Shown here: positions 27,659 to 44,218 of the stretch, in pieces | Position numbering within the stretch: the stretch's first letter is position 1 | Layout: every line of letters starts with the position of its first letter | Origin: an uncultured bacterium | GTDB taxonomy: Bacteria > Bacillota > Clostridia > Lachnospirales > Lachnospiraceae | Reading direction: 5' to 3' | Length of the DNA: 64,000 nt | Assembly: GCA_947177425.1 (NCBI GenBank) | Contig: CAMWUN010000001.1 | Span: 1 to 64,000, forward strand | Notes under the pieces: generated by a model | What the model saw: only the letters and a program-made list of their open reading frames with translations | Told to the model about the DNA's origin: nothing | Database searches by the model: none | Made by a program: the position numbers and the translations under genes

Positions 27659-29125
27659 TTACCGTCTCTGGCGTAATTTCTCAGCATCAGTCTTCCCTTT
27701 TTTAAGGATAATAAAATAAGCCGCCATACCTAAAATAATAAAACCGATAAAGCTTAATGAAAAAACCGTTATCACACTTCTGACCCACTCATAGACAAGC
27801 AGATTTTCCTTCTGTATCACCATAAGTTCCGGCTCTGCCTGATAAAAAATCCCTGTACAAATACTAATGATTAGCGCCGCCGCAGTTCCCACGCCCAGAA
27901 TAACCTTCCTGCGCGCAAGCCACACACAATGTAGATTTTCTGATATTTCCTGTGGTTTTTCCATAGAAATCCTGACCGTTTTATCCCAATTTTTTAAAAG
28001 TGCAAATTCCCTCTGCCCTGCTCCCTGCTTATTTAAACTGGCAAAAACCTGCTCCCCAACAAACAGAAGCGTGAGATTTTTAAAAGAAGTGTTAAATAGA
28101 AACGGTTCCGTAAATCCTGCTGCAAGGAAACAGCATATCATAGCCAGCTCTATATTTTTCTTCTGTTTCACATAAACTGACACTACTGCCATATATCCTA
28201 CACATATCAGAAGAAAAACAGGTATCCCATAAGTCACCAGAGCAAAAAGATATGCGTTGTCCATTGTAATAACTTCTGTTGTAATTGCTGCAAGATTATT
28301 CCCCAACAGGGACATATTGTCAAGGGTCAGGAAATGTCTGGCAAGTTTAATTCTGTTATTAAATATTTTGTCAGCCAGTTCAAACGCTTTTCCATGCAAT
28401 GCCATCGGTATGATAACAGAAACCAGAATACAGCCGGGAAATACAAGCTTTACCAGGAAATATTCTATTTTACTGATTCTTTTCTTCTTTACATAATAAG
28501 ACAGGCAAATATATACCATTACAATAAGAGCGCCTGTGAAGCTGTAAGAATAGAAAAACAAAAAAATATTTCCCCACATTAAAAGCACAAGATGTTTCCA
28601 GCAGTAAGTATCTTTGACACAGTAAATTGCAAAAGCGGCCAGCGCCAGATAGGAAATATGCAGAACATTGGGATGGGGATATCCCATAAAATACCGGAGA
28701 ACCGCCCCAAAAATATTTTTTGTCTGAACCGCTGTTTCAACATTCCCGATAAAAACAAGGGATGTCAGAAACCGCAGACTCATGGCCGCCGCCCATACAA
28801 CAGCCCCGGTCTGAAAACATCTTTTTACAGAAACATTCTTCATGGCTGCTGCTGTCACCATACAAATCAGAACACCCTTTTCTCCACTGACCCGGTAAAC
28901 CACCGCGGACCATGTCAGCAGAAAAAGTATCACTGCCCACTCCCGGTAAGAGTATTCTGTAATACACATTTTAACCCCTATACATAAAAAGGCCAGCACC
29001 AGGAACACCTTATAAAGGGGCTGCCCATCGTACATTCCAATCCCTTTTGCAAACAGCATAATTCCCCAGAACAACAGATACAGTAGTTCCGACAACCGGA
29101 TCGTTAAATATTTTTCTTTATTCAT
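27659..29125 (-). CDS. Wzy-like polysaccharide polymerase, tandem copy 2
   Basis: A 488-aa polytopic protein with about eleven transmembrane helices in the first 350 residues, a cytosolic stretch (residues 350-400), and two more helices near the end. The conserved segment GYPHPNVLHISYLA matches GLGHPNALQCM of the gene upstream, and both share a KMCITEYSYREW-type loop. It overlaps that gene by eight bases. The C-terminal extension with two additional helices is absent from the partner. It probably polymerises repeat units outside, but no motif proves polymerase rather than ligase. Confidence 0.75.
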   Translation of the reverse strand: MNKEKYLTIRLSELLYLLFWGIMLFAKGIGMYDGQPLYKVFLVLAFLCIGVKMCITEYSYREWAVILFLLTWSAVVYRVSGEKGVLICMVTAAAMKNVSVKRCFQTGAVVWAAAMSLRFLTSLVFIGNVETAVQTKNIFGAVLRYFMGYPHPNVLHISYLALAAFAIYCVKDTYCWKHLVLLMWGNIFLFFYSYSFTGALIVMVYICLSYYVKKKRISKIEYFLVKLVFPGCILVSVIIPMALHGKAFELADKIFNNRIKLARHFLTLDNMSLLGNNLAAITTEVITMDNAYLFALVTYGIPVFLLICVGYMAVVSVYVKQKKNIELAMICCFLAAGFTEPFLFNTSFKNLTLLFVGEQVFASLNKQGAGQREFALLKNWDKTVRISMEKPQEISENLHCVWLARRKVILGVGTAAALIISICTGIFYQAEPELMVIQKENLLVYEWVRSVITVFSLSFIGFIILGMAAYFIILKKGKTDAEKLRQRR

Positions 29126-30290
29126 TCTCCACCCGCCTTTTAGCAGTCAGTCTCCACCAATACATTCCCACAATAAACAGCAGATAATTCCTCCCAATAT
29201 AAACCGAAATAATATGAGCCTCCACAATGGTATACAGAGCCGTCATGGAAAAAAGAATCAACTCATCCCACCGCTTCTTTTTCACAAAATATCCTACAAA
29301 TACTGCAAGCACAATAACTGCCAGAATTGCCGGAATAATCCCATACCAGTAAAACAGCCGCACCCAGCCCATATCAAAATAATAATTATTTTCAGGGCGG
29401 GAAAACAGGCTCCAGGTATCCATAATCCCTTCATGATTATCGGTTTCAATCAGGGAATGAAGCCTCCCCGTCAGTATGGTATCCAGAAACAGGTAAAATT
29501 TAATCTTCCTGTCGGTTTTTGCCCACCAATAATAATCCCACAGACACATCGCATCTTTAGCAGACATAACGGAAATAATAATACTCCCGGCAAAAACAGC
29601 CGCATTCCCCACTGCAAATGCTACCGTCAGCACTTTATTCCGTATTTTGGATGCCAGAAAAAACAAAATAACTGCTCCTGCGGAAACCAGAAAACCTGTT
29701 TTTGAATCCGTCAGAAGAAAAAAGAACCCATTAACCAAAAGCGTCAACGCGTAATAATACCATTTCCATTTTGCATGATACAGATACAGACCAAGCATGG
29801 TCAGCACGCATACCATACATTGCAGCGCATTGGGGTGCCCAAGGCCCAGCACATACCTTGTCTCCACACTGCCCCGCCCATAGTCCCGGGTCAGCGATAT
29901 GGTTCCCAACACTCCAAATAAGGACAAAAGTACAAGAACAAGGCATCCTGTAAGGGTCATCCAGAATACCATTTTCAGGCATTTTACCATGTCTGCATCC
30001 TTACATGCCGCTATAAACATAACCACCCTTACAATCTCATTTCGCCCCGTAGCGAAATAGGATATTGCGCCTATTGCCAGAAAAAATGCAATGAGCAAAT
30101 ATTCCCTGAATGAATATTTCGTCAGGCACACTTTGACCAGAAAAAGCAGGAAAGTGAGACGGAAAATCTGCCCCTCTATTGGGTTTGTATAGGCGCTTTT
30201 GTCAATCAGTACCAGCATGACTTCAATCATCACACCTACATAAAAAATAAGATATGCTGTTTTTTCTCTCAATGATTTGTCATTTATCAT
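29118..30290 (-). CDS. Wzy-like polysaccharide polymerase, tandem copy 1
   Basis: A 390-aa protein with about eleven transmembrane helices. It carries KVCLTKYSFREYLLI, the histidine motif GLGHPNALQCMVCV, and GFFFLLTDSKTGFLVS, the pattern of Wzy/EpsG-like polymerases. A long outer loop around residues 240-300 follows. It is a diverged paralogue of the next gene, which it overlaps. It is preceded at 12 bp by a GT11 fucosyltransferase gene. Confidence 0.75.
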   Translation of the reverse strand: MINDKSLREKTAYLIFYVGVMIEVMLVLIDKSAYTNPIEGQIFRLTFLLFLVKVCLTKYSFREYLLIAFFLAIGAISYFATGRNEIVRVVMFIAACKDADMVKCLKMVFWMTLTGCLVLVLLSLFGVLGTISLTRDYGRGSVETRYVLGLGHPNALQCMVCVLTMLGLYLYHAKWKWYYYALTLLVNGFFFLLTDSKTGFLVSAGAVILFFLASKIRNKVLTVAFAVGNAAVFAGSIIISVMSAKDAMCLWDYYWWAKTDRKIKFYLFLDTILTGRLHSLIETDNHEGIMDTWSLFSRPENNYYFDMGWVRLFYWYGIIPAILAVIVLAVFVGYFVKKKRWDELILFSMTALYTIVEAHIISVYIGRNYLLFIVGMYWWRLTAKRRVENE

Positions 30291-30302
30291 ACAATATCTG
30301 TC

Positions 30303-31199
30303 CTATTCCAGCTTTCCCTGGGGATTAATAAACCTCCATCCCTTCCACAATTGCTCCATCTCTTTTTTATCGAACACCTGGCTGTTTTTATGGATGGTAG
30401 GACGAATCATAATTTTGTCATCGTTTCCATTCAGTCTCGCTCCCCAGAAGCTGAATGTGGAGTTAGCGCAAATGTTATGCCTGCACTGGCTCATAAGCCA
30501 TATGTCATAAAAGCTGTCTTTTCCGTGATTGATATCCACCACCGTATATTCCGCCCCCTGGTATTTCCGGCCCGCATAAGCAATATCATCCGAAAACAAA
30601 TAAAAATGTGCTCCCGGCACCAGTTCTTTTACCAGCTCTATTGCCGTCTCATAATATCTGTCTGTACAAATGTTTCCAAACAAAGCCGCATTTTCAGGGT
30701 CTAAATAGTCTCCCCGTCTTATATGCACACTGACAGAATTTCGTTCTTTCATTTCCTCTGCCATCTTTTCGTTTAAGGGATTACTGCTGACCGGAAATTG
30801 TATTTTTTCTCTCAAATCATACAGAATATCGCCATAATATTTCTCACAGGCAAAATATCCGCTGATATACATATCTTCATATTCAAAAATCTCTGGATGA
30901 TACATCCTGCTTTCCTTAAACCAGTGCACGGTAAAAGGCATTAATTTCCGCCGCAGTCTGCCGGAGAGCGCGTCATTTCCTATCAGCCTTATCTTATCTT
31001 CGGGATGGCAGGTTTCATAGATCAGCCTGTCAAAGTATGCCAGTTCCAGTTCCCTTTTTTGCAGTACTTCCTTTTGGTTATCATCGGAAAACCACGAAAG
31101 ATCCAGTCTGGCTTCCTTTCCCATTCTGACAAATTTTCTGTATAATGCATATTGCTGGAGCTGGTTTCCCAAGCCTCCTGCTGCCTGGATAATAATCAT
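30303..31199 (-). CDS. Glycosyltransferase family 11 (alpha-1,2-fucosyltransferase-like)
   Basis: A 298-aa GT11 enzyme. AAGGLGNQLQQYALYRKF is the N-terminal signature with glutamine in place of phenylalanine, VSVHIRRGDYL is the catalytic HxRRxDY, and ICANSTFSFWGARL the C-terminal motif. GDP-fucose is the expected donor. AGGAATAGGAT lies before the ATG. It sits between the SGNH partner of the MBOAT and the tandem polymerases, so its product may be acylated and then polymerised. Confidence 0.9.
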   Translation of the reverse strand: MIIIQAAGGLGNQLQQYALYRKFVRMGKEARLDLSWFSDDNQKEVLQKRELELAYFDRLIYETCHPEDKIRLIGNDALSGRLRRKLMPFTVHWFKESRMYHPEIFEYEDMYISGYFACEKYYGDILYDLREKIQFPVSSNPLNEKMAEEMKERNSVSVHIRRGDYLDPENAALFGNICTDRYYETAIELVKELVPGAHFYLFSDDIAYAGRKYQGAEYTVVDINHGKDSFYDIWLMSQCRHNICANSTFSFWGARLNGNDDKIMIRPTIHKNSQVFDKKEMEQLWKGWRFINPQGKLE

Positions 31200-31202
31200 A
31201 TC

Positions 31203-32678
31203 CTATTCCTCTTCCTTATCACAATGCTCCATCTCAAGTCCCAGATAGACATTATCTCCCGCTGCATCAATCAACTGGCTGACCGTTTCATTATACACAA
31301 CTATATTTACGCCATTCCCGACCATGGCATAGTCCTTTCCGCCAATCAGTATGCGGGCCTTTTCTTTTAACTCACCCTCTGCTTCCTGTATAACAGATTC
31401 CACATGGATTTCATCATTGTCTGTATTCATACAATAATAATACCCGCTTCCCGGAAAGTAAAGTTCTCTTTTTCCGTCTTTAAAAATCCAGACGCCGCCA
31501 GCCTCATACTCTTCCTTATTGATACCAAGCTTCGCCAGTCCGTCCAGATATACCTCACCCAAAACCTTGTAATTTCCTGTAAGGGCCAAAATTACTGTCT
31601 GTCCGTCTTCCATTCCGGAAATAATCTCAAGATATTCATGAATATCCTGCGCCTGTTCCAACTTGTGTGCAAGCACTTTATTTCTCAAATATAGAGCGTT
31701 ATCCTCCCACAATTCATATCCTTTGCTCCCCCTTCTGTCTGCTATTTCATAATTTTCTTTCAAATATTCTGCCATATGTCTGGTAACTTTAGCCGCACCA
31801 TAATTGTTTACATGCTCCATATCCCTGAAATCGGTTTCAAAATCAATGGCAATTTCATCATATAAATTATTATAATTAATAAACGGAACCCCCTGCTGCC
31901 GGGCAAATGCCTCTACTGCATTAAACTGCATCTGTTTTTCCGCAGACAACACAAACGGCGAAGCAAAAAGAACGACAGGCACATGATGCGCATTTGCCGT
32001 ATCAATTATTTCCTTGAGCATTTCCAGTCTTTGGGGATTCAAATCTGCGGTTTCCTTAATACCATTTATATCCGGCTTTTCAAAAGACTCTCTCTCATAG
32101 CTTCCTCTGTACCCCACCATAAAAGGAATACTGTCCTCAAAATCATTCCGGGTAAGTTCTGCATACCGGGAATGTACCACAGGTATCTTAAAGTAAATCT
32201 CCTGTTCCTGCTGGCGCCCCATATTCATATTTTCAGACAGATATTTCATGTACTCTCCATAGTTAGCAGACCATTTCATTCCAAGGACATTCCTGTATAT
32301 ATCCGCGTCGGAGTTTACAATCTCACCGCCTGTCATTCCCAGCATTTCCACCACAATCACTTTCGGCTTTTTCGTCCGTAATGTTTCTTTTATAAAATAG
32401 CAAGTGCTGTCCATCATTTGTGAGCCGGCTGAAAGCGTATAGCCTGCCAACCCATAATCTTCCCACAAAATCCCGTGGTCAATCGTGCAGTGGGCATGGC
32501 TGCTTCCGAAAAAAAACACATCAGCGCATTCCTCATCCATTTGATAAAAGCGCTGCCATCCTCCGCCTCCCCCGGTCTCCTTGTAATTGAAGATTCTGAG
32601 AATGCCGGACAGCATGCCCAGTGTCAGCGACAGAAATAAGACTATTTTCACTATGTTGCAATAACTTTTTTTATCCAT
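31203..32678 (-). CDS. Membrane-anchored SGNH-like (AlgJ/DltD-type) partner of the MBOAT, with extra C-terminal domain
   Basis: A 491-aa protein anchored by one helix (residues 8-28), with an outside domain. It carries GSSHAHCTID at about residues 58-67 and FRDMEHVNNYGAAKVT with the paired D and H, a layout like AlgJ/AlgX or DltD proteins that work with membrane O-acyltransferases. After about residue 350 comes an additional domain (TVILALTGNYKVL, DGLAKLGINKE, GSGYYYCM) that I cannot name; it faintly resembles ILEI-type domains. The start is uncertain: the ATG at 32678 has its AGGAG 17 bases away and one at 32708 has none. The MBOAT gene lies just upstream. Confidence 0.8.
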   Translation of the reverse strand: MDKKSYCNIVKIVLFLSLTLGMLSGILRIFNYKETGGGGGWQRFYQMDEECADVFFFGSSHAHCTIDHGILWEDYGLAGYTLSAGSQMMDSTCYFIKETLRTKKPKVIVVEMLGMTGGEIVNSDADIYRNVLGMKWSANYGEYMKYLSENMNMGRQQEQEIYFKIPVVHSRYAELTRNDFEDSIPFMVGYRGSYERESFEKPDINGIKETADLNPQRLEMLKEIIDTANAHHVPVVLFASPFVLSAEKQMQFNAVEAFARQQGVPFINYNNLYDEIAIDFETDFRDMEHVNNYGAAKVTRHMAEYLKENYEIADRRGSKGYELWEDNALYLRNKVLAHKLEQAQDIHEYLEIISGMEDGQTVILALTGNYKVLGEVYLDGLAKLGINKEEYEAGGVWIFKDGKRELYFPGSGYYYCMNTDNDEIHVESVIQEAEGELKEKARILIGGKDYAMVGNGVNIVVYNETVSQLIDAAGDNVYLGLEMEHCDKEEE

Positions 32679-32735
32679 TGCTCTATACGGTCTGTCTCCT
32701 GCAATCATTTTCTAAAAATGTGTTTAAAAGCTGCT

Positions 32736-34244
32736 CTAAAACTGGAAATAAATAAACTGTGCGGAATCAAACCCCGGGCCATAGTATCCAAAAACAACGC
32801 ATGTAAAAATCAGCATCAGCAAAACGCCCCACCTGAAAACAATCCACTGTCTCTGTAAACTTACATCCAGCAATTCTCCTTTTTTATACTTTATCAGTTC
32901 CACAAGAACCAGCATAAAAATTCCAAACCCTAAAATATGCATTTCCTTAACGTCCAGCCCCAGCATGTATATTTGCTGGTTAAATAACGACCACCAGTCA
33001 CGGTACGTAACCATGCGCTTTATATAGTGTACTGCCTGTCCCAGCGAATCCGCCCTGAAAAAAATCCATGCAATATCTATCAGCACAAAAGTTACCAGCC
33101 CCTTAAAAAATTTATACCCGAAAGAATCTGTTTTTGTATGGCATTTACCGTTGATTTTCTGTACCAGAGGCGTAAGTTCTTTTTCAGCAATCTGGTAAAA
33201 ACCATGAAGAAGCCCCCATACAGCATAGGTCCAGTCGGCCCCGTGCCACAGACCGCTGACACCGAATGTAATCAGAATATTTCTGTATTTCTTTAGTTTG
33301 CTGCACCTGCTGCCCCCCAGCGGTATATAAAGATAATCCCGGAACCATGTGCTTAGGCTGATATGCCATCTCCGCCAGAAGTCCACAATAGAAACCGCAA
33401 AATACGGCGTATTAAAATTTTCCATAAGCTGAAACCCCAGAACCCTTGCTGCTCCTATGGCAATCATGGAATATCCTGAAAAGTCGCAGTAAATCTGTAT
33501 GGCAAATGCCGCCGCGCCTGTTCCAAGAGCCACCATTCCATATCCTTCAAATCCATCAAATACCGTATTAACCAAAACCGCCGCTCTGTCTGCAATGACT
33601 ACCTTTAAGAAATAACCCCAAAGCATAATGACAAAACCGGAAGTCACTCTCTGATAATCCCACAGCTTATGTGATGCTTCACTTTTAATCTGATTAAGCA
33701 GGTTCCCCGACCGTTCAATGGGGCCGGCAACCAACTGTGGAAAGAATGAAACGAACAGGGCGTATTTCAGGAAATTCCTTTCTGCCTCAATTGTCCCCCG
33801 GTACACATCTATCATGTATCCCAGCGCCTGAAAAATATAAAAAGAGATTCCCACTGGAAGTAAAATACTGACTTCATCTAATTTTCCTACGCTAAATACT
33901 TCCAAAACCCGGTTAATAGAATGTATCAGGAAGTTTGTATATTTGAAATAAACCAGCATGACAATGTTCAGTGCAATTCCCACGGCAATGACCAATTTCA
34001 TCCATTTCCTCTGTCTTCCGCTTTCAAGGCTTGCCCTGTCCCTTATACTTTCTACAGCCCTCCCGCATATATAAGTTATGATTGTAGAGAGCAGAATCAG
34101 CACAATATAATATGGATTCCAGCACATATAGAAAAAGTAACTGGCAGCAAGCAGCCAAATATAACGCATCCTACAGGGGAGCACAAAATACATCAGCAAA
34201 ACAACAGGAAAAAATATTAAAAAATCAATGGAATTAAATAACAT
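32736..34244 (-). CDS. MBOAT membrane O-acyltransferase (AlgI/DltB-like)
   Basis: A 502-aa membrane protein with about twelve helices that moves acyl groups, usually acetyl, across the membrane to an exported glycan. The family core is clear: LLPVGISFYIFQALGYMIDVYRG, FFPQLVAGPIER, FWRRWHISLSTWFRDYLYIPLGG, and the catalytic histidine in GLWHGADWTYAVWG. The start MLFNSIDFLIFF is typical. It is followed by its SGNH-type partner and preceded by a GH88/105-like gene 15 bp upstream. A second MBOAT/SGNH pair lies at 58073-60637. Confidence 0.94.
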   Translation of the reverse strand: MLFNSIDFLIFFPVVLLMYFVLPCRMRYIWLLAASYFFYMCWNPYYIVLILLSTIITYICGRAVESIRDRASLESGRQRKWMKLVIAVGIALNIVMLVYFKYTNFLIHSINRVLEVFSVGKLDEVSILLPVGISFYIFQALGYMIDVYRGTIEAERNFLKYALFVSFFPQLVAGPIERSGNLLNQIKSEASHKLWDYQRVTSGFVIMLWGYFLKVVIADRAAVLVNTVFDGFEGYGMVALGTGAAAFAIQIYCDFSGYSMIAIGAARVLGFQLMENFNTPYFAVSIVDFWRRWHISLSTWFRDYLYIPLGGSRCSKLKKYRNILITFGVSGLWHGADWTYAVWGLLHGFYQIAEKELTPLVQKINGKCHTKTDSFGYKFFKGLVTFVLIDIAWIFFRADSLGQAVHYIKRMVTYRDWWSLFNQQIYMLGLDVKEMHILGFGIFMLVLVELIKYKKGELLDVSLQRQWIVFRWGVLLMLIFTCVVFGYYGPGFDSAQFIYFQF

Positions 34245-34259
34245 AAAAGTCTCTGTCCC

Positions 34260-35315
34260 TTAATTTATTTCTTCCGCCGCCACAAACAACGACAACGCCG
34301 GCCCCAGCGACCACGGATAGCTTCCATAAATCTGGGGATACATGGAAAACCCCTGACATTCCGCCAGGCAGTTCCCAATCCTGCCCTCTTCCACCATTCC
34401 CAGCAGGGCGTCTCTCCCCCGCACCATCCGGGATCTGTGAATCCCTATCAGTGTTTTCGTGTTCAGGGACTTTGCAACGGAATAAAGGATCATTGCCGTG
34501 GCGGAAGTATCCGCCGGGCCTTCCTTCGCGCTAAGCTGCCAGCTATAAAGCCCGTTTGGAAGCTGGTAAGCCTCCACCTTATCTACCAGACGCCTGTATG
34601 CCTGTTTAATCACTTCATAGCTTGGCCTGGTGTTTTCCAGACAGGCAAGGGTTTCCGACATGCCTATCATCAGCCAGCCTGCCGCCCGCCCCCATCCGAT
34701 AATACCATATTTTACCCCGCTTTCTTCCTGATATCCATGATAAGGAAGCCCTGTCTTTGCATCCATCCCCATTTCAATAAAATTCTGTATCTGGGTTACT
34801 GCCAGATTCACGGCATTCATATCGCCGTATGTACTGCCGTATTTACACAGAAAAGGGCATACCATTCCAATTGTGTCCGCAAAGATGTAACCGTTTTTCT
34901 GGTTTGGACGGTAAGGAAGCGATCCCCTGTCGTCCGTCTCATGGTTAAAAAGATATTTAGCCATGGCATCGGCGGCCTTTTTATATTTTTCCTCGCCCGT
35001 AATCTGGTGCAGGTCAATTAGGGCAAGACCGCTGAAAGCGTCGTCAAGGTAATACATTTTACAGCCCCGTCTTATCCATCTGTCATAATACTGTTTAAGG
35101 CAGTCCACAATCACCCTTGCTTCCTCTGAATTTTTGTGCTCCATATAATAATCCATAAGACCTTTGGCCAGAAGGCCATTCGGCCAGTTAATTTTATCCG
35201 GCGGTTCCACTTTCCGCCCGGTCATTTTTTTTATTATCCTTTTAAAACCATATCCTGGTTTCCGCTTCGGGTAATGGAGCAGATCATGCTCCGCAGCCTT
35301 TACCATTTCCAGCAT
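34260..35315 (-). CDS. Six-hairpin glycosidase of the GH88/GH105 type (unsaturated uronyl hydrolase-like)
   Basis: A 351-aa protein with no signal peptide and an (alpha/alpha)6 pattern of paired helices. Family-like segments are DDAFSGLALIDLHQITGEEKY, GYIFADTIGMVCPFL with the candidate catalytic aspartate, and GWGRAAGWLMIGMSETL, the counterpart of the GH105 RGNGW motif. These enzymes remove unsaturated uronic acids left by polysaccharide lyases. No lyase is seen nearby, so here it could trim or proofread a glycan or use another substrate. GGGAGGAG precedes the ATG. It is the first GC-richer gene after the AT-rich insert. Confidence 0.75.
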   Translation of the reverse strand: MLEMVKAAEHDLLHYPKRKPGYGFKRIIKKMTGRKVEPPDKINWPNGLLAKGLMDYYMEHKNSEEARVIVDCLKQYYDRWIRRGCKMYYLDDAFSGLALIDLHQITGEEKYKKAADAMAKYLFNHETDDRGSLPYRPNQKNGYIFADTIGMVCPFLCKYGSTYGDMNAVNLAVTQIQNFIEMGMDAKTGLPYHGYQEESGVKYGIIGWGRAAGWLMIGMSETLACLENTRPSYEVIKQAYRRLVDKVEAYQLPNGLYSWQLSAKEGPADTSATAMILYSVAKSLNTKTLIGIHRSRMVRGRDALLGMVEEGRIGNCLAECQGFSMYPQIYGSYPWSLGPALSLFVAAEEIN

Positions 35316-35342
35316 GCCGTTTCTCCTCCCATCTTTTGTATC

Positions 35343-37160
35343 TCAATTCTTTTCGTTTCCATATAACTCCTGCCATTTCAATCTTGACATGGCTTTTACA
35401 CTATTTTTCCCATAAAACTGCGCTGTTACTACGTTTGTCCATGCATCAGGGTCATCAGTAACCGGCATCTGCATTAGTGGTCCCTGCACATCATTGACAA
35501 ATGGAATAACAACATCCCGAGCATTTTCATCCATTAATAATCTGGTTTGTAATTCCATTTGTTCTTTGTATTCAGATGCCTGACCACTTGTGATATATGT
35601 CAGGCATACCCATAAAGTACTTTCTTTCATATTACTTCTACATGCTGCTGATGTTATAAAACAAAAAAATATCCCTGGCAATAAAAGCTTTATATTAAAT
35701 TCCCGGTATGAAAGTCTGCTTTTCTCTGCCAGTTTCTTTGCTGCAATTAGTAATATTCCGCTAAAGGTCAGCAAAAATACCTGATAGTTTGTATTGTAAA
35801 CCCCTCCGGAAACAGCCACATCCGCATAAATCGCAGGCGTCTGCATTGCACAATAAATACAGAATAATGCTATAATGGAAATCAATGGATGAGCAAATAA
35901 AAAAAATCTGTTTTTTTCTTCTTCCATTTTTTTAAATGCTCCTGCCATAATTAAGAACAGCAAAAGCAGACCAACAATGACTAATGGTTTTTCCTTGCAA
36001 TATCCCACAATATCCTTAATACCAGCGATAAAAGAAGCTTCTATTGCTTTAATTCCTTTTGTCATGGAAAAACCAAATTCTTCTCCACCCCTTACCCTGT
36101 TTCCGGGCGCTTTCATGCTAATAATTAATCCGAAAACTTCCATCATTATGGGAATAATCAGTGTAAATATACGCTTATCTTTTTGCTCGGAATAATTTAC
36201 AATTATAGTATATGCGGCTGCTATCAATGCAAATAAAGCCGTCTGATAATTCGAGCCTCCCAAAAGGAACATTATTACTGTTATGCCTGCTATATAGGTA
36301 AATTTGTAATCTTTCCTATAATGCAAAAAACAGACTAACAAAATTTGACACATGGAAAATGGAAGCATATAATGAATGGTTCCATTATACCAGAAAATTG
36401 ATGATTTTGTACTCGGGATAAATTGTATGTTTATTGTTAAAAACAAAGTAGTAATCAGAACGCTACTCCATTTGTTTAATCCTAACTCTTTGTAAAGCAA
36501 CTGCCTAAAAAGTAAAATAGTACTTCCAATCCAAAAAGACAGCATTAAAAAAGCAGTTATCACATATGCCTTTTCGCTAAATACTTCCGGCTGAAGTGAA
36601 AAAAGAAATACGCTGAACCATGTTCCCTGCCAGCTATAATAGTATTCTTCCACCGTCTGACAGGCGGCCTTCAATACTTCCATGAAGGAATGGGAGATAC
36701 ACCATGCCGCTCTGGTTTTTACACCATACCCATAATCATCTCCTGAAGCTCTATTTACAAAAGATAAATATGCTACAGGAAGCATTGTAATAATAAATGC
36801 TACATTACCGATTCTGGCCATCTGCTTACAAGTAACTTTTTTACATACTCTTTTCAAATATGTAAATTCAGCTTTTGTACGTTTTATGGCATCCTTTTCT
36901 GATATGCCATCCTGCATTTTGACCAGACAGGTAAGCAGTGCAAATATACTAACACATAATTCCCGATAGGTAAACCAGTAATGTATGTAGCTGTGGGATC
37001 CCAAAGCTATATACCAGACAACCGGCGCAAAAGCCATTATCCCAAACGGTATTCCCCATTCTCTGCCTAAATGTTCTTTTACCCTTCGACATTTGGCCAG
37101 TTGTAACAGTAATCTAGCTGAAGCACCTGCACCAGCCAGCACAACCGGCCATTTTATCAA
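35343..37160 (-). CDS. 3' part of a frameshifted polytopic membrane protein (C-terminal DUF6056-like half)
   Basis: Open frame encoding about 605 aa with roughly fourteen helices. The first ~90 residues (VLAGAGASARLLLQLAK... SHSYIHYWFTYRELCVS) read as the missing end of the protein encoded just upstream, and the frame extends back in sequence to the G9 tract without a ribosome site or ATG. From MARIGNVAF onward it resembles DUF6056-type membrane proteins: ASGDDYGYGVKTRAAW, YYYSWQGTWFS, SIFWYNGTIHYMLP, GGSNYQTALF, APGNRVRGG. If the G tract had eight bases the two frames would make one 934-aa protein. Function unknown; probably glycan or lipid transfer. Confidence 0.7.
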   Translation of the reverse strand: MIKWPVVLAGAGASARLLLQLAKCRRVKEHLGREWGIPFGIMAFAPVVWYIALGSHSYIHYWFTYRELCVSIFALLTCLVKMQDGISEKDAIKRTKAEFTYLKRVCKKVTCKQMARIGNVAFIITMLPVAYLSFVNRASGDDYGYGVKTRAAWCISHSFMEVLKAACQTVEEYYYSWQGTWFSVFLFSLQPEVFSEKAYVITAFLMLSFWIGSTILLFRQLLYKELGLNKWSSVLITTLFLTINIQFIPSTKSSIFWYNGTIHYMLPFSMCQILLVCFLHYRKDYKFTYIAGITVIMFLLGGSNYQTALFALIAAAYTIIVNYSEQKDKRIFTLIIPIMMEVFGLIISMKAPGNRVRGGEEFGFSMTKGIKAIEASFIAGIKDIVGYCKEKPLVIVGLLLLFLIMAGAFKKMEEEKNRFFLFAHPLISIIALFCIYCAMQTPAIYADVAVSGGVYNTNYQVFLLTFSGILLIAAKKLAEKSRLSYREFNIKLLLPGIFFCFITSAACRSNMKESTLWVCLTYITSGQASEYKEQMELQTRLLMDENARDVVIPFVNDVQGPLMQMPVTDDPDAWTNVVTAQFYGKNSVKAMSRLKWQELYGNEKN

Positions 37161-38148
37161 TGGTCGGATGTTTTTCCATATAATCTGGGAGTATGTAATT
37201 TCCTGTCTTACCCCCCCCCACGTAATATGCGCTCCTTAACATAGCGTTTTTAACAATATTCTCACCTGTCAGTATGCTGCCAATCAGCCACTTTCCGGCC
37301 CACATGCCTGTATATCCTAATATCCAGATTAAACTACATATGCACAACTGTTTTACACTTTTTTTCCATGAGTCTTCTTTCATAAATATAAAAATCATAG
37401 GAAAATATAATGCAACCAATGGAAATGTCAAAAAATCCAGATATGCTGTCACAATCCCAATCAACAAAAAAAATATGATTTCTTCTTCTTTTTCTAATAT
37501 ATCTTTTTTTAAAATATATAAAACAGACAAAAGCATGATATAATATACAGTTGAAAACTGAAACGAAACCGCTGTTGCCAGTGGATTTATTATAAATACT
37601 GCAAATACAAATGGCAAAATAAACCTATTAAGCTGCTTCTGAATCATCAGACAAATGATATATATAAATAAGCTCATCTGTAAAAGCATATTAATCATTC
37701 TAATATCACTGATATCAAAAAACAACAACAATGGTTTCAAAATCACAAGATATCCATGCCAATATCTGGGATAACCCATCTTATCAAATTCTCCTGGCAA
37801 ATCATTGGCATAATCTGTTAGCGTATCTACCTGGTGTTGATGTTTTCCTCTGTATGTTATCTGATAATTCTGCATGGCATCTCTTACAATACTGCCTGTC
37901 CCGGGAAATATCGCATTAAGTATCATTGTAGCATCTGTAATATTATCCAATTGAGAGAGCTTGTATCCTGTCATAAGTTGGGGATAAGCCCCCTCATAAT
38001 CATAAAGCTCTATGGAACGCTGCGCGTTTTTCTTCATTTCTTCTACAGGCAATGCATATACTCCCACCAGCAGTACTATTCCTATCACAATTGATGCAGC
38101 TAATATAGCTATTACTTTTATTCCTAAACCAGTCTTTCGTCCCACCAT
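37114..38148 (-). CDS. 5' part of a frameshifted polytopic membrane protein
   Basis: A frame of 344 codons with about eight helices, starting MVGRKTGLGIKVIAIL at an ATG with AGGA seven bases upstream. A first outer loop (LPVEEMKKNAQRSIELYDYEGAYPQ, shown by its ends) and PRYWHGYLVILKPLL follow, reminiscent of GT-C-like proteins. About 309 residues in, the frame enters a run of nine Gs (37211-37219) coding YVGGGK. After it the frame gives 35 residues of unlikely composition and stops at 37114, while the other frame continues as clear membrane protein. The break looks like one extra G. It may be a pseudogene, a phase-variable gene in its off state, or a sequencing error. Confidence 0.72.
   Translation of the reverse strand: MVGRKTGLGIKVIAILAASIVIGIVLLVGVYALPVEEMKKNAQRSIELYDYEGAYPQLMTGYKLSQLDNITDATMILNAIFPGTGSIVRDAMQNYQITYRGKHQHQVDTLTDYANDLPGEFDKMGYPRYWHGYLVILKPLLLFFDISDIRMINMLLQMSLFIYIICLMIQKQLNRFILPFVFAVFIINPLATAVSFQFSTVYYIMLLSVLYILKKDILEKEEEIIFFLLIGIVTAYLDFLTFPLVALYFPMIFIFMKEDSWKKSVKQLCICSLIWILGYTGMWAGKWLIGSILTGENIVKNAMLRSAYYVGGGKTGNYILPDYMEKHPTIDKMAGCAGWCRCFS
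37211..37219 (-). repeat. G9 homopolymer tract (written as C9 on the plus strand) at a reading-frame break
   Basis: Nine consecutive Gs on the coding strand, the longest G/C run in the window. Counting codons shows that eight Gs would join the upstream and downstream frames into one protein and nine put them out of frame. The downstream frame is closed by a TAA just before the tract, so the shift must occur at or very near it. Confidence 0.9.
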
Positions 38149-38174
38149 AAACTCTTCCTTTCCCTTCTGTCTCA

Positions 38175-40028
38175 CTAACGTTCTCTGGCATAAAATACAA
38201 CATCTTCGTAAATTGGCAATTGATTTCTATACTTTTCGTCACTATAAGAAAAATACCATCCCCAATATTTTTCTTCGTCTAAATATGGTAATTCTTCTAT
38301 GGTATATCCATCCTGAACCGCCCTTTCTTCTACGATCTCGCCATCCCTTACAAACATTATTTTATGCAGTGTTTTATCTTTAGGGGCTAAAAACTCCTTA
38401 TAGGAAATCTTCCATATTTGATTTAAATAATTTAATCGATTTGCCAAATAATATTTTAAATATTTTACATTATTATCAAATTCCACATAATGTCCGGGCT
38501 TATCACCGCTAATATCAACATTCTTCCATCTTACCCTGTCCATCTCAACTGATTTTCTGATTAAAGCCGCATACTGGTCTATCCTTTCTTCCAATATCTC
38601 CTCCAGATAAGGCAGAAATCCTTTATAGGTTTCCACCAGCAATGTTTTAAATGCTTCATCTTCATATAAAACTGAATACCAGTTAATTTCCTCGCCTCTA
38701 TAAAATTTAGTTGAAGACCACGTATAATCAACCCATATTCCTTCTGCCCATCCACTGTTCGTTTCGCCAAATGCCCCATCAAAATCCCACACTGGACCTG
38801 CATACAATAAATCATCATTCTTCTCTTTATAATAAAACATACTGGTAATGTTTACATCATGACTTAATGCTATTTCATCAACAATGAACTTTTTAACAAA
38901 CGAATCAAAATCTATATATTTTCTATATTCTTTATTTCCAGAAGAAATCATATCATCAATTCTTTGTGTATAATCATAAATATATGTCACTTGTTCTCTG
39001 GATGCGCTCTGAGGCGATTTAATTGAGAAGCAATTGCCTTGTTCTGTAATAAATCCAGCTTTCTCTTTTTCCCAATAATCAGTACAATCTTTTTCCAGTA
39101 AATACCCCCCATCCATCTCTCCTTTACTTTCCAGCACATATCCTTTTATCCTGTTTTCCTCAAAAACAGCCACATCCTCTATATTCGAATAATTTAATTG
39201 ATTTTCTTTTTCTAAATCAAAAATGTCTACACGTCCTTCGCCTACAGAAACAGTTTCTGACAATAAATAAATGCCTGCGTATTCTCCATTTAAATATAAA
39301 TCTGCCCACACACATTGAGGGCTATAAGCCAGCCCTATTTCCTCAGCCATATCAAACGCAATTTTTGTATTTAGCTTAGCCCCTTCATTCCAGCCCGCCA
39401 GCAGGCACCATCGTTTTCCGCTGTCCATTCCCAGCAATGCCTTTGCTGTTCCGAGTTTAATCAAGTACGGCTTCTTTTCTTCCTCCCATGATGAATTTCC
39501 ACGCCCCGAAATTTTTAGTCTGCCACCATACTCCATTCTTCCATTTGACTTTATTATGTGGATATTTCCACTTTCTTCATTCATTTTATTCTGATGCAGA
39601 TAATCCATGCCACCGCTGTCTGTCTGTATAAATATTGCCGGCAGATAATCAGATTTCATAATAACAATATCATAGACCTTTCTCTCTGTGCCAACAATTT
39701 TCAAATTACAGATATTATTCTCCTGATAATCAATCCTTGTTCCTCTTTTTATTTGTTTTCCATCCCACAAAACTACTTTCCCGCAAAGATCCCCTGCATA
39801 TATACTTTTTCCCTGACAAAAAGATGGTAGAAAAAAATAATATTTACTATCAATTTCATTAAACCATGGATATATATTTTCTTCTCTGAAGTCAGTTACA
39901 ATATGTATAAAAGGGCCGCCATCCTTTTCTATTTGAATCTGTACATTTTTGTCCTCGATTTTCAATAAAAAGCAGACAAACAACTGTATTATTATCAGTA
40001 ATACGATTAACTGCACTTTCTTTTTCAT
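38175..40028 (-). CDS. CotH-family (atypical kinase) extracytoplasmic protein
   Basis: A 617-aa protein with an N-terminal membrane helix (residues 4-23) and an outside CotH domain. CotH proteins are an atypical kinase family. Visible motifs are KISGRGNSSW (173-181), KKPYLIKL, LLAGWNEGAKLNTKIAFDMA, WADLYLNGEYAGIYLLSE and GPVWDFDGAFGE, which hold the conserved lysine and aspartates. The last ~60 residues (MFVRDGEIVEERAVQDGYTI) resemble an InlB B-repeat/Flg_new type domain. GGGGG lies six bases before the ATG at 40028. It is the last gene of a VTC-DUF4956-CotH trio whose members are commonly neighbours. Its substrate here is unknown. Confidence 0.9.
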   Translation of the reverse strand: MKKKVQLIVLLIIIQLFVCFLLKIEDKNVQIQIEKDGGPFIHIVTDFREENIYPWFNEIDSKYYFFLPSFCQGKSIYAGDLCGKVVLWDGKQIKRGTRIDYQENNICNLKIVGTERKVYDIVIMKSDYLPAIFIQTDSGGMDYLHQNKMNEESGNIHIIKSNGRMEYGGRLKISGRGNSSWEEEKKPYLIKLGTAKALLGMDSGKRWCLLAGWNEGAKLNTKIAFDMAEEIGLAYSPQCVWADLYLNGEYAGIYLLSETVSVGEGRVDIFDLEKENQLNYSNIEDVAVFEENRIKGYVLESKGEMDGGYLLEKDCTDYWEKEKAGFITEQGNCFSIKSPQSASREQVTYIYDYTQRIDDMISSGNKEYRKYIDFDSFVKKFIVDEIALSHDVNITSMFYYKEKNDDLLYAGPVWDFDGAFGETNSGWAEGIWVDYTWSSTKFYRGEEINWYSVLYEDEAFKTLLVETYKGFLPYLEEILEERIDQYAALIRKSVEMDRVRWKNVDISGDKPGHYVEFDNNVKYLKYYLANRLNYLNQIWKISYKEFLAPKDKTLHKIMFVRDGEIVEERAVQDGYTIEELPYLDEEKYWGWYFSYSDEKYRNQLPIYEDVVFYARER

Positions 40029-40053
40029 GAAAATCCCCCACTTTCCTATTATG

Positions 40054-40734
40054 CTAAATGCGGTATTCTCCATCATGTACCAAAAAGTTCACTTTTTGTA
40101 TTTCCTTTATATTCTTAATCTCTTTTAATAACTCCCCTTCTTTAGATGTTCTGATTTCAATAATAATTTCTGTTTCACCATTTCGAATACTTCTGGATTT
40201 TTCTTTGCAATATCTGCAATATCTGCCAATTACCTTCTTAACTTCATCCCAATTCATATCCTCTTTACAGCTACACAGCACCAATAACGCATTAGCCCGT
40301 GATGTTGGAACCCACTCCAAAATCGTCAGCATTATAGTCATAACTATACACAAAATAACAGCCAATATATAAAGCCCGACTCCACATATAATCCCTGCAC
40401 TAACTGCCCAGAATAAAAATAGCAAATCGACTGGATTTTTTACTGCATTTCTGAATCTGACAATTGACAATGCTCCAACCATGCCAAGCGATACAATAAG
40501 ACTGGATTGCATTGCAATCATAATAGCTGCTACAATAATGACCAGCCCTGCAATGGTAATATTCAAATCTCTTGAATAAAAAGCTGCCTTGCTCACTAAT
40601 TTATATACTGCAAATATATATAACCCTATCAAACAGGCAGCAAAAAAAATCAAAATGGTCTCTGACAAAGACCATCCTCCTATCATACTTTCATAAACCT
40701 TATTTTTAATAATATCCCCTGTTTTCATATCCAT
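40054..40734 (-). CDS. DUF4956 membrane protein
   Basis: A 226-aa protein with four transmembrane helices in the first 140 residues and a soluble alpha/beta tail. The family signature GALSIVRFRNAVKNP followed by LLFLFWAVSAGI is exact in pattern. DUF4956 proteins have no settled role but usually accompany VTC-domain polyphosphate polymerases and CotH proteins, as here. It overlaps the VTC gene by ten bases; GAGGG precedes two possible ATGs at 40734 and 40728. I infer a membrane partner for the VTC protein. Confidence 0.92.
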   Translation of the reverse strand: MDMKTGDIIKNKVYESMIGGWSLSETILIFFAACLIGLYIFAVYKLVSKAAFYSRDLNITIAGLVIIVAAIMIAMQSSLIVSLGMVGALSIVRFRNAVKNPVDLLFLFWAVSAGIICGVGLYILAVILCIVMTIMLTILEWVPTSRANALLVLCSCKEDMNWDEVKKVIGRYCRYCKEKSRSIRNGETEIIIEIRTSKEGELLKEIKNIKEIQKVNFLVHDGEYRI

Positions 40735-41414
40735 TTTCCCTCACTTGCTTCTCTGCATAGTCTGTATTTCGAATAAGATGATTGATTCATATGGCTGGTT
40801 TCTAATAACTGCGCAATAAATCCCGGTAAGAATTCATCATATTTCACTTCCAAAATATTATTCGCTTCTTTTATATTATCAAAAATTATCTCTTTCCTCC
40901 CAAATCTATCTACCTGCCTGCTGCAACGCAAATTTCTATCTAAAGTAATTCTTACATTTCCAGATTCAAAAACATATGCTTTTCTATCATATTCTACTAT
41001 CACTCTAGGCCTTAGTCCTCTTTCTTTTATAGCAAGATTAAATAAAATAACAGGATTGTCCAACGACATATTACTTTGTCTGACACTTTCCCCCGCCATT
41101 AACGACCACATTTGTTCCTTGGATATTTGCCGTGTTTTTTTCATTACATAATTATATTTTTTATATTTGACCTCCAGCTTAATTACTTCCCATGAATGGT
41201 TGTAAATTCTTATCCTGTACTTTTCCCTTTTACAATTTCCGTCTATTGTATCATTTAAATAAGAATCAAACAAATCATCAAAATAAATACTTGTCACCGT
41301 ATACCCCGAGTAACTTTTCTGGTTCTCATCCGATTTAAGAACACTTTCAAGGCGACTCTGCAGTAATGCCAGATCCGTTTTCTGGCACACATATTTATTT
41401 TCCACACGATACAT
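40725..41414 (-). CDS. VTC-domain protein (polyphosphate polymerase-like)
   Basis: A 229-aa protein that is nearly all VTC domain, a triphosphate-tunnel fold that in yeast polymerises polyphosphate from ATP. Tunnel residues are seen in YRVENKYV, SIYFDDLFDSYL, REKYRIRIY, IKLEVKYKKY, RPRVIVEYDRKAYV and LEVKYDEFLP, with the alternating glutamates and lysines/arginines expected. No transmembrane helix is present; DUF4956 next door may provide one. A different nucleotide-phosphate activity is possible. The gene starts the AT-rich trio and follows the Wzx gene by 14 bp. Confidence 0.9.
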   Translation of the reverse strand: MYRVENKYVCQKTDLALLQSRLESVLKSDENQKSYSGYTVTSIYFDDLFDSYLNDTIDGNCKREKYRIRIYNHSWEVIKLEVKYKKYNYVMKKTRQISKEQMWSLMAGESVRQSNMSLDNPVILFNLAIKERGLRPRVIVEYDRKAYVFESGNVRITLDRNLRCSRQVDRFGRKEIIFDNIKEANNILEVKYDEFLPGFIAQLLETSHMNQSSYSKYRLCREASEGKWI

Positions 41415-41428
41415 AATTCATCCCATAC

Positions 41429-42952
41429 TTATCCTTTCTTAAGCTTCCGCAACACAATCCCCCGCAAATATCCGAATTCCTCTGTCCTTCTGAACAAGGC
41501 CAGAAATATCCCGTTAAAAACCACGCAAATCACCAGAAACATCACTGCAAATGACAGAATCGTGATCTCCGGCATAAGCAACCTTTTAAGTCCCACCAGA
41601 ATCGCCAGGATTCCTAAAAGCGCCGCCAGATACTTCACAGAATCCATAAAATAGGATTTGGCGCTTTTGTCAAAGCATACTCTGTATATAATGCAGGGCT
41701 TGGTGATATTGGCTATCAGCCCCGACACAATTGTCCCTATGTATATTCCCACAAGCCCAATCCTTGCCACCAGTCCGATAGAAATAACCAGATTCACAAT
41801 CCCCTGTATCAGCGCCAGATATTTGTCCTGTTCAAACACACCCGCCGCTGTCTTAAAGTTTGATAAGACAATTCTATCACCTTTAAAATAATAATCAATA
41901 AGAATACAGGATACCGCGCTCACCGCCAGCACCCTTTCCGGCCCTTTCCAGAGATAAATAAAGGGCGTCAGCAGGAAAAAAAAGCCTGTGGCTGAAAAGC
42001 CGTAAATCCAGCAGGCAAAAAAGCGGTATACCTTAAAAATGCTGTACTGCTTTTCTCTTGATTCCGTTGCAATCAGATTGCCAAAACTGGAAAGTACCGA
42101 ATTAAAAATAATATTCACAAAATTGGCAATGGAGGTGAGAATAATATTATAATTTCCCACATATCCCACCAGCGTAACGTTAAGGAAGGCTGATATGATC
42201 ATATTGTCGGTCTGCAGTCTCGCTACATCCCCAACCTTATGAAGCATCAGGGCTTTCGTTTTGCTGACGATTTCCCCGGTTTCCTCTTTTGAGAGTTTCT
42301 CCACATTCTTGTCTGTCAGATAAGGATAGCGCCTGTCCAGATAACGGCTCACAAAAACTTTCTGGGCCAGTTCCACAAACGCCGCCGAAAGAAGGTACAG
42401 GTAAAAATTCCGTGTAGTGACAATGACCATTAACTGCAATGCCACTGTGATCATTTTTGTTATGGTAATAACATTGGTCTGGATATAGTTTTTCTGTTCC
42501 GCATTGGCCAGACTGTATTTATATGCCACAAAATAGGAACTCACTGTATTAAACAAAAAAATCAGATAATACAGCGTCATATCCCTTGTACTGACCCCCT
42601 TGGGCTGGTTAACCAGATAAGGCAGAAAGGGAATCAGGGCAGTGCCCAGCGCCCCAATCACAAGGCCGATGGCCCGGTATGCTCTCTTATACAAAAGCAT
42701 ATAGGATTTAATCTTTTCATAATCCTTACGCGCCACCGGCCCGTACAGGCTGTAATTAAGGGCAGTCCCCACCCCTAACTCCGCCATGGACAATACAGAC
42801 AGTATTCCTGTATACAAATCATTGATGCCTGTCAGGGTATCCCCCAGATAATCGATAAAAAGACTGCGGAGAATAAACCCAAGCAACTGGGTCACAATAT
42901 TGCCGATATATCCAAACGCTATATTTTTTGCGGCTGACTGAACTCTTCCCAT
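41429..42952 (-). CDS. wzx: Wzx-type polysaccharide flippase (MOP superfamily)
   Basis: A 507-aa protein with about fourteen helices that would flip undecaprenyl-PP-linked repeat units outward. The start has AAKNIAFGYIGNIVTQLLGFILRSLFI, typical of RfbX/Wzx proteins. It continues with DLYTGILSVLSMAELGVGTALNYSLY and the later VGYVGNYNIILTSIANF and ISIGLVARIGLVGIYIGTIVS segments. The ATG overlaps the end of the pyruvyltransferase gene by 34 bp. It is the only MOP-type flippase seen; two ABC-type candidates are also present. Confidence 0.92.
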   Translation of the reverse strand: MGRVQSAAKNIAFGYIGNIVTQLLGFILRSLFIDYLGDTLTGINDLYTGILSVLSMAELGVGTALNYSLYGPVARKDYEKIKSYMLLYKRAYRAIGLVIGALGTALIPFLPYLVNQPKGVSTRDMTLYYLIFLFNTVSSYFVAYKYSLANAEQKNYIQTNVITITKMITVALQLMVIVTTRNFYLYLLSAAFVELAQKVFVSRYLDRRYPYLTDKNVEKLSKEETGEIVSKTKALMLHKVGDVARLQTDNMIISAFLNVTLVGYVGNYNIILTSIANFVNIIFNSVLSSFGNLIATESREKQYSIFKVYRFFACWIYGFSATGFFFLLTPFIYLWKGPERVLAVSAVSCILIDYYFKGDRIVLSNFKTAAGVFEQDKYLALIQGIVNLVISIGLVARIGLVGIYIGTIVSGLIANITKPCIIYRVCFDKSAKSYFMDSVKYLAALLGILAILVGLKRLLMPEITILSFAVMFLVICVVFNGIFLALFRRTEEFGYLRGIVLRKLKKG

Positions 42953-44121
42953 AACCTGTCAACTTCTCTCCCTGTGAAATACGCCTGTTCCCGGTAAGAC
43001 GGCATTACCGCTTCCAGATGTTCCCGGATTTCTTTTTCATGGTCAAGGAGCCACCGGAAACCTTCTGTCAAATCCCCGGCCGTTTTAAGGCTCTGGACAG
43101 GAATCACATAATGCTCCTCTTCTTTAAACAGATCCCACGCAATCCCCCGGGCTTTCACAGAATATCCTACTACCAGCGTAGGCACCAGAGAGGAATAGGC
43201 CGCTATGGTAGCGTGGGTTCTTGCTCCCACAAACAAGCGGCAGCGGCTGATGAACCCTTTTAATTCCTCACAGGTGCCGTCTCCTATTTCCACCACTCTC
43301 CCTGTCCCCTTAAAAGTTTCATACAATTCATGGACAGGCTTTCTGTCGTCATTTCTCTCCCACACCACATGGGGAATCAGGGCAATCTGCATATCTGTAT
43401 GGTCTATGATAAACTGGATCATTTCCCGATAATTCTCCAGGGTAATGCCCGGAATGCTCTCATTTTCCTGTATCATGGGGCTTACATTGATTCCCACTGT
43501 GTTTCCCCGGGCAAATCCATCCGGCAGGGGCAGTTCCTTTTTTTCAAGGGTAAAAGCAGGGTCTGGACAGCAGTATAGTACCGGCTTCCCCTTTCCTTTC
43601 CCAAAAACCTCCTTCAAAGCATGATAGGTAATGGTTTCTCTGGCTACAATCGTATGGTATTTTGATAAATCCTCTATAATCTGTTTCTTCTGCAAAAGTT
43701 CCGGTTCTATGGAACAGCCCAGCAGAATAGTTTTAATCCCTTTTTTACAAAAAGCGGAATTGGCCAGCCTCAAATCATTAAGCATACTGTCATAACAGTA
43801 ATTATCGCCGCCAATGGAAACCGCCAGCGGCCCCGGATTCCCTCTAAAAACTTCGTGATACCGGTACCGGATAAAGCTTTCCCCGTCTCCTGTAAGCTTC
43901 CGGTAAATATAATATAATACATGTGCCGGTTTATTACTATCAAAACTGCGTTCCTGTACAATTTTGCAGAGATTTTTTAGAGAATACCTGTTATCCTCTT
44001 CCCCCCGGTAGCTGACCAGCACAGCCTTTTCCTTTATCATCCGGCAGAGACTGTTCACGATGGCCTCGCATCCATGATTGCCGCTGCCTGCATGCATATA
44101 TAAAATCAATTTATCTTCCAA
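42919..44121 (-). CDS. Polysaccharide pyruvyl transferase (CsaB/WcaK family), TTG start
   Basis: A 400-aa cytoplasmic GT-B-like enzyme that adds a pyruvate ketal from phosphoenolpyruvate to a sugar. Signature segments are LYMHAGSGNHGCEAIVNSL, LAVSIGGDNYCYD, GCSIEPELL, VARETITYHAL, VGINVSPMI and FVGARTHATIAAYSS. The most convincing start is TTG at 44121, directly after AAGGAGG with four bases between; upstream ATG-like starts have no ribosome site and the next ATG cuts into the first strand. It precedes wzx and may pyruvylate the lipid-linked unit before export. Confidence 0.88.
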   Translation of the reverse strand: MEDKLILYMHAGSGNHGCEAIVNSLCRMIKEKAVLVSYRGEEDNRYSLKNLCKIVQERSFDSNKPAHVLYYIYRKLTGDGESFIRYRYHEVFRGNPGPLAVSIGGDNYCYDSMLNDLRLANSAFCKKGIKTILLGCSIEPELLQKKQIIEDLSKYHTIVARETITYHALKEVFGKGKGKPVLYCCPDPAFTLEKKELPLPDGFARGNTVGINVSPMIQENESIPGITLENYREMIQFIIDHTDMQIALIPHVVWERNDDRKPVHELYETFKGTGRVVEIGDGTCEELKGFISRCRLFVGARTHATIAAYSSLVPTLVVGYSVKARGIAWDLFKEEEHYVIPVQSLKTAGDLTEGFRWLLDHEKEIREHLEAVMPSYREQAYFTGREVDRLWEEFSQPQKI

Positions 44122-44218
44122 AATACCTCCTTCGTGCCATCTCCTGCATAAAGCCGGATGCTGTCTTCTTTCACGGACTGATGCTTCTTTTCTCAATGAC
44201 ACGGTTCAACCATTCTCT

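Follow-up and report, generated by a model that had tools for sequence, protein, structure and literature searches.

Campylobacter jejuni carries many poly-G phase-variable loci per genome. Among its poly-G surface-glycan genes, cgtB holds a tract of 8 to 9 Gs inside the coding region, where a change of frame truncates the product, and mixtures of 8 and 9 Gs have been seen in one population (PMC6437147). In Bifidobacterium breve, a beneficial Gram-positive gut commensal, an intragenic G tract serves as a replication-slippage switch of sortase-dependent pili, with one or two such clusters per genome (PMC9187656). Here we analyse a window of 64,000 nucleotides (the whole stretch of DNA studied) from an uncultured member of the Lachnospiraceae, in which a tract of nine Gs splits a membrane-protein gene. 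Unlike in C. jejuni, the host belongs to the Lachnospiraceae, the product would be a fused two-domain membrane protein, and tract lengths are read from assemblies; unlike in B. breve, mostly glycan, membrane and regulator genes are concerned, with up to 14 exact G9 runs in a genome of the genus.

We put at roughly 85% the probability that this tract is a slipped-strand translational phase-variation switch and part of a poly-G phasome of the genus, possibly of much of the family. Replication slippage would add or remove single Gs, so that a surface-glycan membrane gene would be read in one frame or another, and each cell would have either the complete fusion or a shortened first domain that lacks DUF6056. 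Tract lengths would then change within living populations, expression would follow tract length, and the split protein would act on surface polysaccharide; the tract would be one of several in its genome, within a genus-wide poly-G phasome of gut Lachnospiraceae.

The split gene and its two protein families

The features of the locus, all on the minus strand, are as follows.

37222 to 38148, minus strand: upstream frame, the first 309 codons of a polytopic membrane protein of about 440 aa without a Pfam family
37211 to 37219, minus strand: G9 tract, the proposed slippage site, read from the sequence, with G10 counterparts in homologous loci L029 and L031
37236 to 37238, minus strand: TAA that closes the downstream frame just 5' of the tract
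37232 to 37237, minus strand: AAGGAG, Shine-Dalgarno-like, 10 nt 5' of a GTG running into the tract; present in L029 too
37114 to 37210, minus strand: tail of about 31 codons, out of frame at G9, with its stop
36879 to 37208, minus strand: C-terminal approximately 110 codons of the approximately 440-aa membrane protein, in the downstream frame, placed by homologue comparison
35343 to 36878, minus strand: DUF6056 membrane protein (PF19528), following the first domain as an in-frame fusion, with an approximate boundary
29118 to 44202, minus strand: cluster of polysaccharide-type genes in which the split gene lies, with GT11, MBOAT, GH88, CotH and polysaccharide pyruvyl transferase

Positions 37223 to 37202 of the minus strand read ACGT, nine Gs and TAAGACAGG. 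The initial annotation had proposed that the tract puts two frames out of register, and both its coordinates and the split were verified: at G9, the upstream frame crosses the tract and terminates about 31 codons on, at 37114, while the downstream frame (630 aa) is uninterrupted between 37235 and 35343. The upstream frame starts at ATG 38148, with GTG 38175 also possible; L029 has one extra A between the two, which shifts GTG 38175 out of register in that locus and makes ATG 38148 the likelier start. It had also been proposed that the downstream frame is shut by a stop directly before the tract and has no ribosome site, and this agrees with what we find, since at G9 the GTG that runs into the tract, 3' of AAGGAG, sits in the upstream frame, which leaves the downstream one without a matching start. 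By eye, no Shine-Dalgarno sequence was seen for TTG 37160, nor a good one near the beginning of DUF6056 that would suit an internal start there. An Rfam scan of the window gave no match.

With eight Gs the two frames had been expected to join into one protein of 934 aa; the arithmetic is right (309 + 3 in the tract + 622 = 934), but the product would be a fusion of two families. When 60 related genomes were searched, 33 of which had a match, downstream residues 3 to 115 matched other frames, mostly of 424 to 479 aa, and residues from approximately 102 to 131 onward matched separate frames, mostly of approximately 480 to 560 aa. The upstream part alone matches those approximately 440-aa frames at 18 places in 12 of the 37 genomes of the genus, and has matches in 60 of 397 family genomes, the gene under study being included in both counts. 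By sequence comparison, the upstream part and the first approximately 110 downstream residues are thus one approximately 440-aa membrane protein. The earlier suggestion that the downstream N terminus continues the upstream protein is borne out by homologues that are unbroken through these residues, and two genes naturally separate at the tract were rejected, since homologues run through. That the two parts might always be separate genes, which the initial annotation named as a refutation, applies only to DUF6056: it is usually a separate gene in relatives, being fused behind the first domain in the window and in L029, whereas in homologues both halves of the first family form one gene. The DUF6056 match itself (57.7 bits) lies above the curated Pfam cut-off of 27.

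No Pfam family and no match in a PDB sequence search were found for the first domain. It is polytopic by sequence, lies among polysaccharide genes, and has a 36%-identical homologue, L032, with an N-terminal GtrA domain (PF04138), in which respects it resembles GtrA-linked GT-C membrane glycosyltransferases; it differs from them in having neither a Pfam match nor a significant fold match. A structure model of the homologue in L030 (pLDDT 61, pTM 0.67) gave no Foldseek match at E ≤ 0.001, and the highest-probability matches among the best 50 of 183 were ALG9, ALG12 and AftA, with E of approximately 1 to 2.5. The first domain is a candidate GT-C-type glycosyltransferase. The GtrA fusion (L032:4453-6168) lies in a metagenome-assembled genome labelled Erysipelotrichaceae.

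Purifying selection acts on the downstream piece (11 synonymous and 6 non-synonymous changes, P = 1.4e-4); the first domain, with 3 synonymous and 6 non-synonymous changes in all, has no synonymous excess (P = 0.29).

The tract in homologues

The nearest relative, Lachnospiraceae bacterium 1XD21-87 (L029), is 99% identical over 5.3 kb and 95.9% identical over 13.9 kb. It has ten Gs at the tract position, as a result of which its upstream frame stops at the tract, and the only other gap in the 5.3-kb alignment is one A. A count of tract length in related genomes, as initially proposed, thus gives G9 in the window and G10 in its nearest relative, a difference between close relatives seen in two assemblies. 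At 44% identity, L031 carries a G10 tract in the same loop; its gene is also split, with 334 and 106 codons open on either side. The loop is variable and is not conserved in L030 and L032; the idea that the tract was seeded in a conserved Gly-Gly motif was accordingly rejected.

Tracts also occur elsewhere in the family. The gene in L030 (55% identity) is split by G8, 21 codons past a good start, and that in L253 by G7 at a site different from that of the window. Counting 50 loci with the first domain, the window gene and L029 included, we found a tract of G7 or longer in or near the domain in seven, of which five are split and two in frame. That G tracts arose repeatedly, and at several positions within one protein family, speaks for selection acting on the tract itself. 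An in-frame allele of this gene was not seen, the window, L029, L031, L030 and L253 all being out of frame. Some homologues are broken without a tract, by a TGA in one copy of genome G071 and by five stops in G180, and the frame of the homologue in L247 ends early.

Poly-G tracts in the genome, the genus and the family

Exact G runs in the 37 genomes of the genus number 646 for G7, 128 for G8, 104 for G9 and 34 for G10, so that a five-fold drop from G7 to G8 is followed by almost none from G8 to G9; extrapolation gives approximately 25 G9 runs. The effect is uneven: G9 outnumbers G8 in 13 of the 37 genomes, G8 outnumbers G9 in 16, and nine have no exact G9. The genome of the window has 22 G7, one G8, eight G9 and two G10 runs and none longer, that is, 11 sites with eight or more Gs, and its eight G9 runs compare with 0.86 predicted (Poisson P for eight or more = 4e-6) under a rough null, the G7-to-G8 decay of the genus extrapolated.

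Three further genes of this genome are split by G9 or G10 tracts, encoding a DUF2142 membrane protein (L037), an Acyl_transf_3 protein whose profile is matched at 2 to 217 before and 233 to 322 after the tract (L038), and an unassigned membrane protein (L039). Another tract is found in L038 close to where a DUF6020 gene ends, that in L036 is in frame inside a radical SAM gene, and the sites in L033, L034, L040 and L041 look non-coding or doubtful. On contig C12 (L035:2045-3917), a G8 run lies 5 nt 5' of the ATG of a flagellin gene (Flagellin_N, Flagellin_C), where its length could alter the spacing to the start codon; the middle of this flagellin has a metalloprotease-like HELMH stretch, which makes the protein a candidate flagellinolysin.

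Across the genus, 139 distinct sites of G9 or longer were found, seven of which were left out for flanks shorter than 600 nt. The remaining 132 sites (G9 to G12) comprise 46 broken, 43 in frame, 20 ambiguous and 23 non-coding, compared with 4, 29, 2 and 7 among 42 G7 control sites taken from 40 regions by listed order, not by random draw (all listed for G028, all but one for G029, the first six for G021); the proportion of broken to in-frame sites differs between the two sets (Fisher P = 6e-5). Where at least 60 codons are open on both sides, 25 of 68 G9 to G12 sites keep the frame, about the one third that a random register would give, versus 25 of 29 G7 sites. Cut-offs of 40/60 open codons give 49 broken to 29 in frame for G9 to G12 and 5 to 26 for G7, and 100/100 gives 25 to 18 and 2 to 20. 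The base 3' of the tract is T in 99 of 132 G9 to G12 sites versus 5 of 42 G7 sites, and a stop triplet follows directly in 43 of 132 versus 2 of 42; a TA immediately 3' of the tract seems to be preferred, which ends one of the registers at once.

Different species share tracts at orthologous positions, in some cases with a changed length: at 88 to 90% identity, the G9 of L093 is in frame, whereas the G10 of L142 is broken. L048 and L151 share an N-terminal tract at 95% identity; with only 57 codons after it, the gene in L048 looks degenerate and was not counted. Repeat-like pairs in L051, L109 and L100 were ignored as overlapping flanks of adjacent tracts. In L051 (1502-2617, contig C54 of G035) three G9 tracts lie within 1.1 kb, and in L100 (2433-2453, contig C58 of G009, approximately 100 nt from the contig end) G10 and G9 are two Ts apart.

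Pfam and NCBIfam tallies covered the 25 commonest of 86, 67, 876 and 371 families, the Pfam classes of the 109 tract genes being the 25 commonest of 86. Among these, methyltransferases reach up to nine genes per model (one protein may match several such models), followed by hexapeptide transferases (5), family 2 glycosyltransferases, Acyl_transf_3 and AraC-type regulators (4 each), DUF2142, radical SAM and response regulators (3 each) and Caps_synth (2); solute-binding proteins and dehydrogenases also occur. The families listed for the 35 G7 genes are asparagine synthase, tRNA synthetase, ATP synthase, aconitase and similar, and a family 1 glycosyltransferase is present in the set. As judged from their domains, glycan-modifying enzymes, membrane proteins and regulators are over-represented among the tract genes. 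At least three predicted segments by crude hydropathy were found in 0.19 of tract genes versus 0.09 of G7 genes, a weak difference, and the Gs lie on the coding strand in 96 of 109 tract genes, no stronger a preference than in the controls (29 of 35). Several tract loci per genome, with a bias to surface genes relative to the G7 controls, are thus seen at the sequence level in this genome and in the genus.

Both pieces of ten split genes were scanned for domains. A single Pfam domain spans the tract in two, Acyl_transf_3 (L038) and Aminotran_1_2 (L132); in another two (L075, L105) the domains before and after the tract differ but could plausibly belong to one protein, and the other six are uninformative. 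In L075 (1424-3021) a G9 tract lies between the two domains of a response regulator with an AraC-type output domain, so that switching at this locus would affect further genes.

Weighing the explanations and their bearing on gut bacteria

The phase-variable switch that the initial annotation had raised as a possibility is, we infer from these comparisons, well supported: the gene splits exactly at the tract while homologues are continuous, the length differs between G9 and G10, L031 carries G10 in the same loop, and the genus holds many like tracts, about half of which split coding frames, in surface-glycan and regulator genes. The presence of MutL was counted against it. We consider it improbable that the true tract is in frame and that the G9 and G10 calls are sequencing or assembly errors, even though homopolymer lengths in databases can depart from real distributions (PMC9187656), and the wider 13.9-kb alignment with L029 has 23 gap positions; such errors would not yield the excess of long G runs, the classes of tract genes or the tract at the same site in L031. 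As the whole story, error was rejected on account of the genus-wide excess, which it does not produce.

Slightly less credible still is a chance homopolymer frameshift in an ordinary decaying pseudogene. It would fit the fact that every allele seen at the site is out of frame and the lack of synonymous excess in the first domain, but no further stop or frameshift is found over 309 + 622 codons in the window or L029, L031 remains open on either side at 44% identity, the downstream piece is constrained and similar tracts occur in many genes. The poorest candidate is programmed transcriptional or translational slippage at a fixed tract, by which every cell would make both products; homopolymers of at least 8 are typical sites of programmed transcriptional slippage (PMC3711429), and the frames are open on either side of the tract. 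The usual sites named in that paper are, however, A or T runs, and the length is not conserved (G9, G10 and G10 at the site, G8 and G7 elsewhere). Programmed frameshifting calls for a conserved slippery site of constant length, whereas here both length and site vary among homologues. Such slippage may coexist with phase variation.

Under phase variation by slippage, the mechanism is a known one in a new setting, G-tract phase variation being already known in Campylobacter and Bifidobacterium. Among the literature matches listed, whose scope did not extend to preprints and most subscription papers, none reported phase variation through simple repeats in Lachnospiraceae. A review that covers a survey of 378 genomes names, in its Table 3, 153 genera with long simple repeats, and part of what is described here may already be inside such a list. 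For Mediterraneibacter gnavus, also of this family, a 2026 study with promoter reporters judges capsule genes not or hardly phase-variable (PMC13121745); a promoter reporter would be blind to an intragenic frame switch.

Similar G runs cutting comparable genes in related gut bacteria suggest that surface genes are flipped on and off by copying slips. We think it fairly likely that gut Lachnospiraceae not regarded as pathogens carry large poly-G phasomes, with approximately ten or more switchable surface-glycan, membrane or regulator genes in the richest genomes. Phase variation by simple repeats at many loci would then extend beyond pathogens and contribute to surface diversity in a dominant gut family; given as many as 14 exact G9 runs per genome in the genus and 23 in sampled genomes of the family, this can be tested with existing metagenomic reads. 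The breadth in the family is only suggestive, frames having been analysed within the genus and in first-domain homologues: at least one exact G9 occurs in 181 of 298 family genomes, with a maximum of 23. Five family genomes of other genera, G150 (23 exact G9 runs), G082 (20), G205 (14), G307 (13) and G121 (12), are candidates for large phasomes.
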